From: Streptosporangiaceae bacterium
Lineage (GTDB): Bacteria; Actinomycetota; Actinomycetes; Streptosporangiales; Streptosporangiaceae
DNA: 8,893 bases
Assembly (NCBI GenBank): GCA_030040815.1
Contig: JASHSZ010000607.1
Coordinates: forward strand, 1 to 8,893
Direction: 5' to 3'
Every line of letters begins with the position of its first letter. The first letter of the stretch is position 1. Made by a program: the position numbers and the translations under genes. The notes under the pieces are model-generated. The model did no database searches and was not told the origin of the DNA. It saw only the letters and a list, made by a program, of their open reading frames with translations. Shown in pieces: positions 3,417 to 8,672 of the stretch.

Positions 3417-4361
3417 CTAGCGCAGCGGCAGCACCAGCAGCACGGTCGGCACGACGACGAGGAGGGCGCAGAGGGCGAGCACGAGCGAGGTCGCCGCGCC
3501 GCTGAGGCCGGGCGGCCGGCGCAGCAGCCGGATCACGCGGGCCGCGACCTCGGACTCAACCTGCGGGCCCGATACTGCGAACGCTCCGGCTGGCACTGCA
3601 CCGCCCCCGGCCGCGCCCACGCGCAACAGCGCCGTGGCCAGTTCCCTGGCCGGCAGCTGACGCAGCACCTGGTCATCGGCGTGCATCTCCAGCAGCAGCC
3701 CGACGGCCCGGTAGGCGCGGGTCGTGATGCCTGCCCAGCTGAACGCGCGCAGCAGCGCAAGGAATGGCAGCAGCACGAGGTCGTGCCGTTCCCGGAGATG
3801 GGCTCGCTCGTGGGCGAGCACTGCCGCTAGCTCGTCCGCATCGAGCAGGTCCAGCGCGCCGGCGCTGATGACAATCTCCGGGCGAAGACCAGGCAGACAG
3901 TAGGCCGCAGCGGCCGGGTGATCGACGACGAGAGCGCCCGGAACCTTGGGATCGCCGCGCGCCAGCAGGCTGAGCAGCGCGCGCTGACGCTGCCGGGCAC
4001 GCAATACCGAGGCGGATGCTGCGATGAGGATCCAGCACAGCACTCCGAGCAGCATCAGGCCAGCTGCCAGGCACGCCAGCCTGGCCGGCCCGATGGTCAT
4101 GGCCACTCCGGCGGGGTTGTCTGCCCTCGCCAGGCTGAACAGGCGGCCGAGCGCACCGGTCCCGGCGGCGGCAGCAGAGCCAGTCGCTGCGAACCCTGCG
4201 AGGGCACCGACAGCGGCGAGGCTCCAGCTCAGGCCCAGCGCCTGCCACAGCAGGATCGCTGTCACGGGCGACCGCCGTGGCCATGATGCGGTGGCGAGCG
4301 CGCTAGCCGCGGGAACACAGCCGACAGCGACCACGGTGAGAATGAGGTCCGCGGCGGACAC
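3417..4361 (-). CDS. M56 family (BlaR1-like) membrane zinc metalloprotease
   Basis: Polytopic membrane protease of 314 residues. Hydrophobic segments lie near residues 5-25, 33-60, 90-118 and 288-312. The zinc site is intact: HERAH (184-188) and a third ligand, Glu225 in LLEMHADDQ, 37 residues after the second His, as I recall for BlaR1. Family role: on a signal, the protease inactivates its partner BlaI-type repressor. Full-length BlaR1 carries an extracellular penicillin-binding sensor domain that makes it nearly 600 residues; this protein has none, so the trigger is unknown. The GTG start (4359-4361) is 6 nt after the repressor's stop, and its ribosome binding site (AGGGGG) lies in the end of that gene, suggesting coupled translation. 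No beta-lactamase is seen nearby. Confidence 0.88.
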   Translation of the reverse strand: MSAADLILTVVAVGCVPAASALATASWPRRSPVTAILLWQALGLSWSLAAVGALAGFAATGSAAAAGTGALGRLFSLARADNPAGVAMTIGPARLACLAAGLMLLGVLCWILIAASASVLRARQRQRALLSLLARGDPKVPGALVVDHPAAAAYCLPGLRPEIVISAGALDLLDADELAAVLAHERAHLRERHDLVLLPFLALLRAFSWAGITTRAYRAVGLLLEMHADDQVLRQLPARELATALLRVGAAGGGAVPAGAFAVSGPQVESEVAARVIRLLRRPPGLSGAATSLVLALCALLVVVPTVLLVLPLR

Positions 4362-4367
4362 GAGCAG

Positions 4368-4733
4368 CTACCCCCTGGACGGCTCTCCGAGCGTTTCGAG
4401 GGCCACCAGCAGTGCCCGGGCCTCGGTACCGGAGACGCTGCGGGCGAATCGTGCCAGCGCGGCCTGCCGGTCCCCGGTCTGGTCCAGTGCACTCAACATG
4501 AGCTCGGTCACGTACGCTTCCCGACTTTCCGCCGCACGATAGTGCCATGCCCTCCCATGACGCTCCCGCCGGGCGAAGCCCTTCTTGGCGAGCCGGTCGA
4601 GCACGGTCATCACGGTCGTGTGAGCCAGGTCCCGATCGGTGAGCTGGCTGCTCACCTCGCGCACGCTGAGCGGGTCTGCAGCCTCCCAGAGCACGTCCAT
4701 TATGGCGCGCTCCAGCTCACCTAGTCGGTTCAC
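4368..4733 (-). CDS. BlaI/MecI/CopY family winged-helix repressor
   Basis: Small DNA-binding repressor of 121 residues. The N-terminal LGELERAIMDVLWEA (4-18) and the SVREVSSQL ... TTVMTVLDRLAKKGFARRERHGRAWHYRA segment (about 23-68) are the typical winged helix of the BlaI family. The C-terminal half would form the dimer and carry the site cleaved by the partner protease. It is followed by the M56 gene, the standard repressor-protease pair. The GTG start (4731-4733) has no ribosome binding site, but a TAGAAT box lies 7 nt upstream, so the message may be leaderless. Target genes are unknown; the hydrolase gene immediately upstream is a candidate. Confidence 0.88.
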   Translation of the reverse strand: MNRLGELERAIMDVLWEAADPLSVREVSSQLTDRDLAHTTVMTVLDRLAKKGFARRERHGRAWHYRAAESREAYVTELMLSALDQTGDRQAALARFARSVSGTEARALLVALETLGEPSRG

Positions 4734-4798: not shown

Positions 4799-6436
4799 TC
4801 AGCCGGGCTGCGCTGGCGCCTCAATCCGACTCTTGACCGGCAGGATGACCGCCGAGGGATGTCCGGGATCGTGATAGACCTGCTGCTCGGCGGCCTGCAA
4901 CGTGGTCGCGGTCGGGTGCGGCTGGGCGGTGCCGGTGTTACGGGCGTACCGCGGAAAGGCGCCGCTCGAGACCTGAATCCTGATCCGGTGGCCGCGCCTG
5001 AACCGGTATGCCGTGGGCCACATGCGCACGCTCACGGGCCCGAGCTGATCGGCGCCGGACAGGCTGACGAGTCCGTCGCACACGTTGTGGGAGCGGCCGC
5101 GGGAGTCGACGTCGCAGAGCCGGACGAAGACGTCGGCATAACGCAGGCTGGAGCGGAACCAGATCTGCGCGCTGACCTCGCCGACGACCTCGGTGTCGTC
5201 ACCCAGCGGCGGTGTGGTGTAGGTGAGGACATCGGCGCGCGCCTCCAGCCGCCCGTTGTCGACACGGCCTGCCCGCCCGGACATCCGCACGCCGCCAGCC
5301 GCGGGCGTGGGGTCCGCCGGGTCGTAGCAGTACCGGTCGGGTGCCGATTCCACCGGCGGTTCCGTGGCCAGACCGCCCGCCGACTGGAGGTGGAAGCGGT
5401 GCGGCGCATATCCGGCCGGTGGCCAGCGGTCGAAGTCATGCCACGCTGCCTCGCCCATCACGTACAGGCGCACGGGGGAACGAGCCGGCGGTGCCTCGCC
5501 GCGCGCGTATGCCAGGCCAAATGACAGGGTCTCGGCCATGGCTGCCCGGATAGCACCCGGCGAGGTGTGAGCCCACGGCCCCACGGTGAGCCGGGCCGGA
5601 CGGCCCGCGTCCTGCAGGATCTGGTAGTCGCGGAGCTGGCCGGGCAGGAAGATGTCGTACCAGCCGGCAATGGAGCTGACCGGCACTCTGACATCCGCGA
5701 CCCGGTCACGATGATCGATCCCGGCCCAGCGCGGGGCGTCACCGTCGCAGGACAGGATGTCCTGGATGTAGTCCGAGCGCCGCCCGATGGCAGCGACATC
5801 AGCCTGACCGAGCGGAAGGACCCGCAGGGCGCGGCGCACCGTGCTGGCCGCCCTGATCTGCCGCAGGAACGCGCCGCGTCGTTCCTGCCCGGCGATCTGA
5901 ACGCCCCAGGCGAACGGCGTCTCCAGGGACAGGCCGTCCGGGCGCAGGAACTCCAGCGTCAGCGCGGACTCGGTCACTTCCGGGACCATGGCCTTTACCT
6001 CGGGTGGCACCTGATCGGCGATCGCCCACTGCACGTAGCCGAGGTAGCTGAGGCCGGTGAGCACGATCGTGCCGCCGAACCAGGGCTGCTTCACCAGCCA
6101 ATCCAGCGTTGCGAGACCGTCTTCGCGCTCGCGCCGCATCGGGTCGAACTCGCCGCCGGACCCGAAGGTGCCGCGCACGCTCTGCACAAGAACCTGGAAG
6201 CCACGTTCGGCCAGTGGCCTGGCCAGCGCCGTGCCCATCGGCCCGCGTCGGCCGTAGGGCGAGCGATACACCGCGGTCGGCAGCGCGATGCCGCCAGAAC
6301 GCGGCGCCCACCGGTCTGCCAGCAGGACAGCGCCGTCTGGCATCGGGACGCGCAGGTCTCGTTCGATCACGATGTCCCGGGTCTGCGGCGGCGGCAGCCG
6401 CAGACCGCGCTGGATCAGGTAGCTGGTCAACTTCAC
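4799..6436 (-). CDS. CocE/NonD family serine hydrolase (X-Pro dipeptidyl-peptidase S15-like)
   Basis: Hydrolase of 545 residues, probably cytoplasmic since no signal peptide is seen. The order of parts is that of cocaine esterase and alpha-amino acid ester hydrolases: an alpha/beta-hydrolase core beginning near VPMPDGAVLLADRW (30-43), the nucleophile Ser130 in GLSYLG, Asp261 in AGWYDIFLPGQ, and His290 in GPWAHTS, with a helical cap between them. A C-terminal beta-sandwich (about 320-540) contains the PLGDDTEVVGEVSAQIW and FRRGHRIRIQVSSGAFPRYARN segments typical of the family. Serine, Asp and His spacing agrees with CocE. Family members cleave esters or amides, and some act on beta-lactams; this substrate is unknown. 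GTG 6436 is chosen for AAGGAGAC 7 nt before it; a longer in-frame reading to 6724 overlaps the divergent gene and lacks family features. Confidence 0.88.
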   Translation of the reverse strand: MKLTSYLIQRGLRLPPPQTRDIVIERDLRVPMPDGAVLLADRWAPRSGGIALPTAVYRSPYGRRGPMGTALARPLAERGFQVLVQSVRGTFGSGGEFDPMRREREDGLATLDWLVKQPWFGGTIVLTGLSYLGYVQWAIADQVPPEVKAMVPEVTESALTLEFLRPDGLSLETPFAWGVQIAGQERRGAFLRQIRAASTVRRALRVLPLGQADVAAIGRRSDYIQDILSCDGDAPRWAGIDHRDRVADVRVPVSSIAGWYDIFLPGQLRDYQILQDAGRPARLTVGPWAHTSPGAIRAAMAETLSFGLAYARGEAPPARSPVRLYVMGEAAWHDFDRWPPAGYAPHRFHLQSAGGLATEPPVESAPDRYCYDPADPTPAAGGVRMSGRAGRVDNGRLEARADVLTYTTPPLGDDTEVVGEVSAQIWFRSSLRYADVFVRLCDVDSRGRSHNVCDGLVSLSGADQLGPVSVRMWPTAYRFRRGHRIRIQVSSGAFPRYARNTGTAQPHPTATTLQAAEQQVYHDPGHPSAVILPVKSRIEAPAQPG

Positions 6437-6441
6437 CGGCG

Positions 6442-6461: not shown

Positions 6462-6496
6462 GAGCGTAGGCTCGGTGCTGCGGTCTGGGAGGCACC

Positions 6497-7420
6497 ATGG
6501 ACGATCATCGGGGCCCGGAACCGACTCGGGTGAATCCGCTGGCCGAGCGGCTCAGCCGCTGGGTGAGTGGCACACCGCGCGGGCAGGCATTCGGCTGCTG
6601 GACAAGCAAGACGCTGGCGCTCCCGCAGCTGCGGCGCCTGGTCGGCGGGGCGATCCCGTGGACTCCGCTGCAGCGTCCGGTCCGGGAGGCCACGGTGGCG
6701 CTGGTCACAACCAGCGGCGTCCACCTCCGGCGGGATCGGCCGTTCGACCCCGACAGCGATTCCTCATTCCGGGTCATCCCGCGGGATGCCGAGCCGGGTG
6801 ATCTCGCCATCACCCACCAGGCATACGACCGCCGCGACGCGCTGCGCGACATCAACCTGGTGTTCCCGTTGCAGCGGCTGCGTGAGCTGGCGGCGGCCGG
6901 AGTGATCGGACGGCTGGCCGCCGAACATTACGGCTTTGGCCTGGTCGATAGGGGCGCCAAGCTGATCGGTCCCGGCCGCGAGGTGGCTGCCCGGCTTCAG
7001 GACGCGGCGGTGGATATTGCCCTCTTGGTGCCTGCTTGACCGATCTGCACGCGGTCCGTGGGACTGCTAGCGAGGGAGATAGAGAGGGCTGGCGTGACCA
7101 CGGTCGGCCTCGCGCTGGTAAAGGAGGTGGCGGAGGTGGCCAGAGCGCCGCGCATGCTGTACCTGCACTGGCCCTTCGGCCACGCGCTGGGCGAGCCGGG
7201 AAAGCCTGAGCAGCAGCGGGCCGTCCTCCACGACATGCTCTCGATGGCGCGGCGGGCGCCCCGGCCAGGCCTGGTCGTGGACCTGCCATACCGGTGGCGG
7301 CGCGAGACCTATCCGCCCGTAGCCGACTGGGAAGCGGACAGCGAGGCGTTCACGGCGGCTCTGGTCGAGGCAGAGCGTGCTCGCGGACCTGCCGCCCGCG
7401 TACTCGCCGGGAACGAATGA
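6497..7420 (+). CDS. Selenoprotein B-family protein (GrdB/PrdB-like) with in-frame UGA, predicted Sec181
   Basis: Read through the TGA at 7037-7039, this is one protein of 307 residues. The part before it (1-180) has the VALVTTSGVHL motif (67-77), RVIP, ITHQAYDRRDALRDINLVFP (105-124) and an HYGFG segment, recognisable from the glycine/sarcosine/betaine/D-proline reductase selenoprotein B family. The part after it continues in the same frame: U-P-I-C-T-R-S-VGLLAREIERAG, then WPFGHALGEPG, RAVLHDML and a Pro/Arg-rich end. Sec181 and Cys184 would form a U-x-x-C redox pair. Family members reduce substrates through selenol chemistry; here no GrdA, GrdE or PrdA partner is nearby, so the substrate is unknown. 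The ATG is preceded by GGGAGG with a 4-nt gap. A GTG at 7058 could be called as a separate start but has no ribosome binding site and would lose the redox motif. The alternative is a nonsense pseudogene. Confidence 0.8.
7037..7039 (+). other. In-frame UGA, predicted selenocysteine codon 181
   Basis: This TGA divides two open stretches that share a frame and belong to one protein family. The next codons give P-I-C, so the codon lies at the first position of a redox CxxC-like motif, where the family carries Sec or Cys. The frame closes normally with another TGA at 7418-7420. Confidence 0.75.
7046..7072 (+). promoter_or_regulatory. Candidate bacterial SECIS hairpin
   Basis: GCGGTCC (7051-7057) pairs with GGACTGC (7061-7067) over 7 bp, with one G-U wobble, closing a GUG loop (7058-7060). 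After a 2x2 internal loop, 7046-7048 can pair with 7070-7072. The loop starts 19 nt after the UGA and has G first, which fits the published description of bacterial SECIS elements (small loop, a G in its first two positions, about 16-37 nt after the UGA). An alternative fold, CACG/CGTG (7048-7051 and 7057-7060), shows a GGUC loop like that of E. coli fdhF but closer to the UGA. Confidence 0.55.
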
Positions 7421-8020: not shown

Positions 8021-8078
8021 CCAGACCCGACGAGCTGCGAAACCACGACGGTGCGGGTTTTTGCACCGGATGGTCAGC
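8016..8078 (+). promoter_or_regulatory. Structured spacer with two competing folds before the macro-domain gene
   Basis: GCTGACCA (8016-8023) pairs perfectly with TGGTCAGC (8071-8078), enclosing a second hairpin, CGGTGC/GCACCG (8049-8054 and 8063-8068). A competing pairing joins AGACCCG (8023-8029) with CGGGTTT (8054-8060), whose 3' arm runs into five T residues (8058-8062), resembling a terminator with a 24-nt loop. The outer arm overlaps the NTF2-like gene's stop codon. It may be a terminator, or an attenuator; no known riboswitch family was recognised. Confidence 0.4.
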
Positions 8079-8144
8079 TCTCGCCCACCAGCGGCCGCAA
8101 GCCGGCCGCGCCGCCCGCAGAATCGAGCGTCGTGCGCATTCACC

Positions 8145-8672
8145 ATGGAAATGTATCTGACCGCACTTTCAGGTGATATCACCGAACAGCACGTCGACGC
8201 GATCGTGAACGCCGCCAATTCGTCGCTGCTCGGCGGTGGTGGCGTGGATGGCGCGATCCACCGGCGCGGCGGGCCGGAAATCCTAGCCGCCTGCCGGGAC
8301 TTGCGAGCCGGTCACCTGGGTTCGGGTCTGAAGGCCGGCCAGGCGGTCGCGACCACGGCCGGCCGGCTGCCTGCCCGGTGGGTGATCCACACCGTCGGCC
8401 CGGTCTATAGCCGAACCGAGGACAGATCGGCGACCCTCGCCTCCTGCTACGCCGAGTCCCTTCGCGTCGCAGCCGACCTTGGCGCCCAGACCATCGCGTT
8501 CCCGGCCATCTCGACCGGCGTGTACCGGTGGCCGATGTCCGACGCCGCCCGAATCGCGGTCGCGGCGGTCTGCGGCTCCCGGCTCGCCGACCAGTTCACG
8601 GAGGTGCGCTTCGTGCTGCGCGGCGAGGACGCGCTCGCCGCGTTCACCGCTGCGCTCGCCGCGTCGCCGTGA
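8145..8672 (+). CDS. Macro-domain protein, O-acetyl-ADP-ribose deacetylase (MacroD/YmdB-like)
   Basis: A single-domain protein of 175 residues that binds ADP-ribose. Family members release acetate from O-acetyl-ADP-ribose or remove mono-ADP-ribose from proteins. The key blocks are all present: GDITEQHVDAIVNAANSSL (10-28) with the adenine and catalytic-side Asn22 and Asn25, the phosphate loop LGGGGVDGAIHRRGG (29-43) with Asp35, VIHTVGPVY (80-88), and the second phosphate loop FPAISTGVYRWP (119-130). This makes it an almost minimal MacroD-type enzyme, about the size of E. coli YmdB (177 residues). ATG 8145 is preferred since the family begins right there; a TTG at 8061 would add 28 unrelated residues, and ATG 8151 is an alternative. 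The upstream ribosome binding site is weak. A NUDIX gene follows, which may act on the same ADP-ribose metabolites. Confidence 0.9.
   Translation: MEMYLTALSGDITEQHVDAIVNAANSSLLGGGGVDGAIHRRGGPEILAACRDLRAGHLGSGLKAGQAVATTAGRLPARWVIHTVGPVYSRTEDRSATLASCYAESLRVAADLGAQTIAFPAISTGVYRWPMSDAARIAVAAVCGSRLADQFTEVRFVLRGEDALAAFTAALAASP

Follow-up and report, generated by a model that had tools for sequence, protein, structure and literature searches.

Selenocysteine-containing proteins annotated as 'PrdB' have been known from sea-water DNA since 2005 (PMC1088965, PMC2398784). These surveys report 42 selenocysteine (Sec) PrdB sequences and a single Cys homologue from the Sargasso Sea (PMC1088965), and 235 Sec sequences with 110 Cys homologues, assigned to pfam07355 and carrying a UxxC motif, from 38 marine samples (PMC2398784). 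Other papers put proline reductase at 6.4% of marine selenoprotein genes (PMC9402790), find 131 selenoproteins of the proline reductase type among 110 organisms (PMC5029168) and give D-proline reductase as a UxxC protein under TIGR04483 (PMC13188914, PMC9312934). In view of these surveys of marine and other 'PrdB' selenoproteins, the kind of gene described here was already known. What is added to it is a soil actinomycete member for which no partner was seen, together with evidence that 'proline reductase' is probably the wrong name for it. The family is a widespread one. Most of its database entries are fragments some 180 residues long that lack the active site, many carry the name 'PrdB', and the family probably does not have the function that this name implies.

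The stretch of DNA analysed, henceforth the window, comprises 8,893 nucleotides of a Streptosporangiaceae bacterium (contig JASHSZ010000607.1 of assembly GCA_030040815.1). On its forward strand lies a PrdB-like selenoprotein gene (6497..7417), which starts with an ATG at 6497, preceded at a distance of 4 nt by GGGAGG (6487..6492, forward strand), a plausible though putative ribosome-binding site read from the sequence. The frame is open to 7036, is interrupted by a TGA (7037..7039, forward strand) that is kept in relatives, and is open again in the identical frame to 7417, the terminator being a second TGA at 7418-7420. With the inner TGA read as Sec the product has 307 residues and the motif U181-P-I-C184, in which the second residue, Cys184, is encoded by TGC (7046..7048, forward strand). 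The original prediction had taken the two same-frame open stretches for a single gene, and in this it was right: the coordinates agree, and the nearest relative, L001 from a Streptosporangiaceae metagenome-assembled genome (MAG), has the same TGA. Overall, the locus very likely represents a single selenoprotein gene read through a UGA, with Sec insertion guided by a hairpin, encoding a free-standing PrdB-like enzyme that is probably not a D-proline reductase and was probably transferred between soil phyla.

The assignment to the GrdB/PrdB superfamily, proposed from the outset, is borne out by PF07355 (GRDB superfamily), which scores 28.9 bits against a gathering cut-off of 22, and by an alignment to TIGR04483 (PrdB) that stays below its cut-off. 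The likeness to GrdB is limited to its C-terminal part (profile positions 218-345 of 347), the match ending just before the Sec, and four GrdB-type NCBIfam models remain below their cut-offs (TIGR01917, 43.6 versus 602.2 bits; TIGR01918, 50.9 versus 65.45; NF040794, 59.3 versus 800; NF040795, 53.5 versus 775). Hits to PF07355 break off at profile positions 345-346 (of 347), immediately ahead of the Sec, a pattern one would expect of a model made from UGA-truncated proteins. Proteins encoded on plasmids of Roseomonas haemaphysalidis and Haematobacter massiliensis are of similar length and share 31% identity over 283 aligned columns; they carry the motif P-N-C-P-x-C, with Cys (TGC) in place of Sec at position 181, and are annotated as 'glycine/sarcosine/betaine reductase selenoprotein B family protein'. 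The marine 'proline reductase PrdB' sequences resemble the window protein in several respects, namely a UxxC motif, a Sec form more common than the Cys form (PMC1088965, PMC2398784) and membership of pfam07355 (PMC2398784). They come from the sea and not from soil, and they may belong to the same branch.

The product would be a free-standing selenol reductase from a PrdB-like branch of the superfamily, and a catalytic scheme for it can be borrowed by analogy from GrdB and PrdB. Sec181 would attack a small substrate as the nucleophile, the selenenyl intermediate would be resolved by Cys184, and the external reductant would be thioredoxin or a cellular thiol. Since residue 184 is Cys in 20 of 25 aligned rows (the window and 24 related loci) and Asp in the other five, the resolving step by Cys184 does not appear to be universal. 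The five rows with Asp (L010, L015, L016, L020 and L021, an Actinomycetota branch with records labelled Acidimicrobiales, Actinomycetes and Actinomycetota) read U-P-L-D, so that Sec is kept and the second Cys replaced. The second motif residue also differs in one locus of the Acidobacteriota phylum (L136, G739:C91:14944-15639), where two in-frame TGAs three codons apart give U-P-I-U at 181/184; SelA scores over its cut-off in that genome, and the locus may be a double-Sec member or an assembly error. Two Pseudomonadales rows (L017 and L023) have an additional C-P-x-C tail at the C-terminus.

The alternative that survives best keeps the selenoprotein and changes its chemistry, making it a thiol-peroxidase or disulfide oxidoreductase with a thioredoxin-like U-x-x-C rather than a reductase of C-N or C-X bonds. 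A structural model predicted with Cys in place of Sec (pLDDT 94.6, pTM 0.92) puts residue 181 between a strand (174-178) and a helix (182-197), an arrangement that would suit such an enzyme, as would the U-P-I-U motif of one relative and the lifestyle of many carriers of the gene, which we take to be aerobic. Against it stand the homology to C-N cleaving reductases and the loss of the second Cys in five of the 25 rows. Searches of solved structures returned no clear match to the model and decide nothing here. On balance an oxidoreductase of this type is rather unlikely.

Considerably less probable is that the gene encodes a true PrdB, the D-proline reductase subunit that acts with PrdA. The resemblance is substantial: the alignment to TIGR04483 covers positions 20-236 of its 238 (E 7.4e-48), Sec falls in the same column and is followed by x-x-Cys, and the SHxxYD stretch has a similar counterpart in the window (THQAYDR). 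Over nearly the whole length the window protein is 37% identical to PrdB of Peptoclostridium acidaminophilum, 34% to PrdB of Ligilactobacillus salivarius and 36% to an unannotated Acetoanaerobium relative, and TGA occupies the column of residue 181 in the two annotated prdB genes and in the unannotated relative alike. However, the score of 163.1 bits lies far from the equivalog cut-off of 300, which the two annotated PrdBs pass with 310.2 and 406.7; three other Sec members score 120-156 and a Cys relative 87. At its N-terminus the window protein extends about 30 residues further, its tail is longer as well, and its motif is A-U-P-x-C as opposed to G-U-G-T-C in annotated PrdB. A partner of the PrdA/GrdE type (PF09338) was matched in none of the 23 relatives' genomes that carry the gene, most of them MAGs, while in a control the same profile found matches in 8 of 301 Chloroflexota genomes and PrdA of the L. 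salivarius prd cluster scores 92.6 bits. Unlike in L. salivarius, no prd genes occur in the window or are conserved near the gene, and no conserved neighbour gene of any kind was seen in the window and the 24 loci, though the annotated P. acidaminophilum prdB is likewise without prdA in the 10.7 kb around it.

Ring opening of the proline type depends on a pyruvoyl group, which forms a Schiff base. With no pyruvoyl partner detected in the relatives' genomes, the window enzyme is probably not a D-proline reductase; without a pyruvoyl group this ring opening would be unavailable, and the substrate and reaction should differ. A hint that the chemistry of the superfamily is wider than C-N cleavage, albeit one that concerns the partner subunit, comes from the weak match to PrdA of FarE, a fluoroacetate reductase subunit by its NCBIfam name only. 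Once the correct frame, the hairpin and the failure to find a partner are taken into account, the 'proline reductase' of soil and sea bacteria becomes a question that can be tested, concerning another selenium-dependent reaction.

The reading of the inner TGA itself rests on a broad comparison. A translated scan of genome contigs using a homologue alignment matched 106 stretches, of which 24 are relatives of the gene (L001-L024; L022 and L024, the latter a damaged copy, come from the same genome). Candidates were chosen by the pre-Sec peptides YDRxDAxRD and VDLxLxVPA, by which distant Cys forms are less likely to be found, a bias corrected by a later profile search of genomes of the Acidobacteriota phylum. 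The codon aligned to residue 181 is TGA in 24 of 24 loci, from records labelled Actinobacteria/Actinomycetota, Acidobacteria, Ktedonosporobacter, Myxococcales/Anaeromyxobacter and Pseudomonadales, and so spans Actinomycetota, Acidobacteriota, Chloroflexota, Myxococcota and Pseudomonadota. This agrees with the proposal that Sec is the first residue of U-x-x-C; the sense codon in close relatives that would have marked the TGA as a recent mutation or sequencing error was seen in none of the 24. The profile search found matches in 82 of 297 genomes of the Acidobacteriota phylum. Position 181 was read in 90 of the 101 matches listed and is TGA in 54: in all 30 of the loci L110-L139, three of which repeat genomes of the first scan, and in 24 of 60 further rows, where the remainder have Ser (18), Cys (13) or Asp/Glu (5).

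These counts, with a tree of 113 rows (117 less three duplicates and one fragment; root arbitrary), indicate that Sec and Cys exchange at position 181, as in known selenoproteins, and that other residues are confined to distant branches. Cys at 181 requires at least four changes in the tree, and the branch of the window is all Sec. The 18 Ser homologues (L143, L146-L158, L160, L162, L163 and L165, all of the Acidobacteriota phylum) use a TCN codon, mostly within P-A-S-R-L-C-H-Q, and form a single branch (support 100/100) that appears to attach among Sec rows, its exact place being weakly supported (93/53). The expectation that homologues would align Cys or Sec with residue 181 therefore holds in that both are common, and fails in that Ser, Asp and Glu also occur in distant branches; the in-frame UGA, kept as UGA or Cys outside those branches, behaves as in bacterial selenoproteins.

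A further possibility is that the TGA is a real stop, whether in a pseudogene, through a sequencing error or between two short proteins with a restart at the in-frame GTG at 7058. Existing gene calls would seem to favour it, since those listed end at 180 aa: among 226 homologues listed from a 5.8-billion-protein database (two lists, the best 120 of 456 and the best 120 of 690, one entry being the window's own protein), 217 terminate in '...VPA', with the UGA as the next codon. Of the nine that differ, four stop at this point too but with a different final triplet, two (P0122 and P0123) are Cys forms of full length, P0025 has Leu, and the last two have other ends. P0025, from a metagenome, reads V-P-A-L-P-L-C in an otherwise unbroken chain, which may reflect mutation, error or a real variant. 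That routine gene calls would lose the active site had been foreseen, and these truncated entries show as much. A stop is nevertheless highly improbable. The TGA recurs at the same codon in records from five phyla, and the Cys homologues form one unbroken chain. Codons 182-187, which would be untranslated with a restart at the GTG, overlap the stretch of highest codon identity and retain Cys184 in 20 of the 25 rows. G+C per codon position is near-equal on both sides of the TGA (76.7/52.8/81.7% before, 77.8/53.2/83.3% after). Judging from dN/dS against L001 (0.131/0.400 for residues 1-180, 0.052/0.397 for residues 182-290), the part 3' of the TGA is under stronger purifying selection than the part 5' of it.

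Decoding as Sec, the preferred reading, would involve tRNA-Sec and SelB guided by a putative SECIS hairpin just behind the UGA (7051..7067, forward strand; stem 7051-7056 with 7062-7067, loop 7057-7061), the position and size of which we take to match a bacterial SECIS element. An ungapped alignment of 25 rows covers the 60 nt from the UGA, and with columns counted from the U of the UGA a stem of seven pairs (columns 14-20 with 26-32) is paired in 95.4% of cells, a value reached by none of 500 shuffles, while slid stems are 18-43% paired. The number of double-change cells (24) and the covariation score (0.432) were likewise not reached in 500 shuffles, which related rows can, however, exceed without structure. 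Two further measures did not rise above the shuffles: double-change pairs (2, as high in 498 of 500) and further pair types (6, 446 of 500). With three of five measures exceeding all shuffles, the comparison points to a covarying hairpin of the SECIS type. Column pair 15-31 is G-C in 11 rows, C-G in nine, U-A in four and unpaired in one, and pair 19-27 occurs in four standard types (U-A 10, A-U 8, U-G 4, G-C 3); this latter pair couples the first base of residue 187 (column 19) to a silent position, the third base of Gly189 (column 27). The outermost pair, 14-32, is broken in seven of the 25 rows, including that of the window.

In 46 further rows 95.7% of cells are paired, against 18-43% for slid stems; this set leaves out five of 51 rows set aside by a one-codon-insertion filter, which wrongly caught L128 and L174, and those five pair in 82.9%. 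Codon identity at residues shared among seven close relatives peaks at codons 184-190 (0.85 versus 0.49 elsewhere, the first of 204 such intervals). Folded alone, the hairpin of the window is of unremarkable stability (z -0.93), and a search of the window against Rfam gave nothing above a gathering score. Comparison across rows nonetheless supports a hairpin that is under selection.

The decoding machinery was sought in the 23 relatives' genomes, mostly fragmented MAGs apart from the complete chromosome of Ktedonosporobacter rubrisoli. RF01852 (selC) and TIGR00475 match weakly in nearly any genome (at E <= 0.001 in 23 of 23 and in all 14 controls), and counts are therefore based on ARAGORN calls and cut-off scores. 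On this basis the best RF01852 match is a tRNA-SeC (TCA) in 18 of 23 genomes, SelB is over its cut-off in 19 and SelA in 18, and each genome has at least one of the three. The genome of the nearest relative, G001, encodes an unbroken SelB ORF of 710 residues (245.4 bits versus a cut-off of 242.25), directly upstream of which the end of selA (the last ~77 profile positions) is cut by the contig edge. No selC was found in G001, where the best RF01852 match is a tRNA-Ser, and four other genomes of the 23 also lack a tRNA-SeC call. In 16 of 16 SelA-positive genomes of the same family, picked for high SelA scores and not at random, RF01852 reaches 72-79 bits, in several just before selA, so that the selC of G001 may sit in a contig gap. 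That the UGA is read as some other amino acid, by suppression or a code change, is barely conceivable: the window DNA alone shows read-through and nothing more, but the gene's own terminator here and in L001 is TGA, the hairpin covaries, tRNA-SeC with a TCA anticodon accompanies the gene in most relatives, and the residues replacing position 181 include Cys, with neither Trp nor Gly seen among the 60 rows of the Acidobacteriota phylum. As TGA ends both genes, it must be an ordinary stop there, and the inner TGA is read as Sec by context.

The view that selenoproteins are uncommon in this setting is not supported. SelA passes its cut-off in 115 of 200 sampled genomes of the family of G001, among them G047 and G101, the two others closest to the window by AlaX; RF01852 (selC) scores high in all 16 of the picked genomes; and matches to the PrdB-like profile occur in 78 of 396 Actinomycetota genomes (64 at E < 1e-40 and 14 weakly, E 1e-24 to 1e-15). 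Given the latter count, the gene is less unexpected in this setting than had been supposed, although within the family it is indeed rare, G001 being the sole carrier among 200 genomes. In the tree the window groups with L001 (100/98), then with five rows of Acidobacteriota origin (100/93) and then with Ktedonosporobacter (100/100), while other actinobacterial rows are placed elsewhere. AlaX, which the window also encodes, shares 83-85% identity with its counterparts in three genomes of the family, G001 included, and 75-77% with those in three more; six of the twelve family genomes searched have only ~30% matches, and nine genomes outside the family reach at most 48%. By sequence this AlaX appears to be of Streptosporangiaceae type. 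Because the selenoprotein gene groups with Acidobacteriota rows, transfer between phyla would be the simplest account: the gene probably reached a Streptosporangiaceae-like actinomycete from another soil phylum, in a recipient family that commonly decodes Sec. More broadly, the evidence leans modestly towards the PrdB-like branch as a separate, partner-free selenoenzyme family of five phyla (Actinomycetota, Acidobacteriota, Myxococcota, Chloroflexota and Pseudomonadota), which would move between Sec-decoding phyla, catalyse a reaction unlike that of proline or glycine reductase and include branches with Cys, Ser, Asp/Glu and perhaps a second Sec (U-P-I-U).

The surroundings of the gene in the window are varied. 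Divergent from it on the reverse strand lies a CocE/NonD-type hydrolase (4799-6438; TIGR00976 over cut-off), for which the ORF start as listed, 6724, would overlap the selenoprotein gene and a GTG near 6438 fits better. An M56/M48-type peptidase region occupies 3417-4733 on the reverse strand, with an ORF at 4368-4733 that presumably encodes a BlaI-type repressor. Downstream, a macro-domain protein (8061-8672) scores over the cut-off of NF001664, O-acetyl-ADP-ribose deacetylase.
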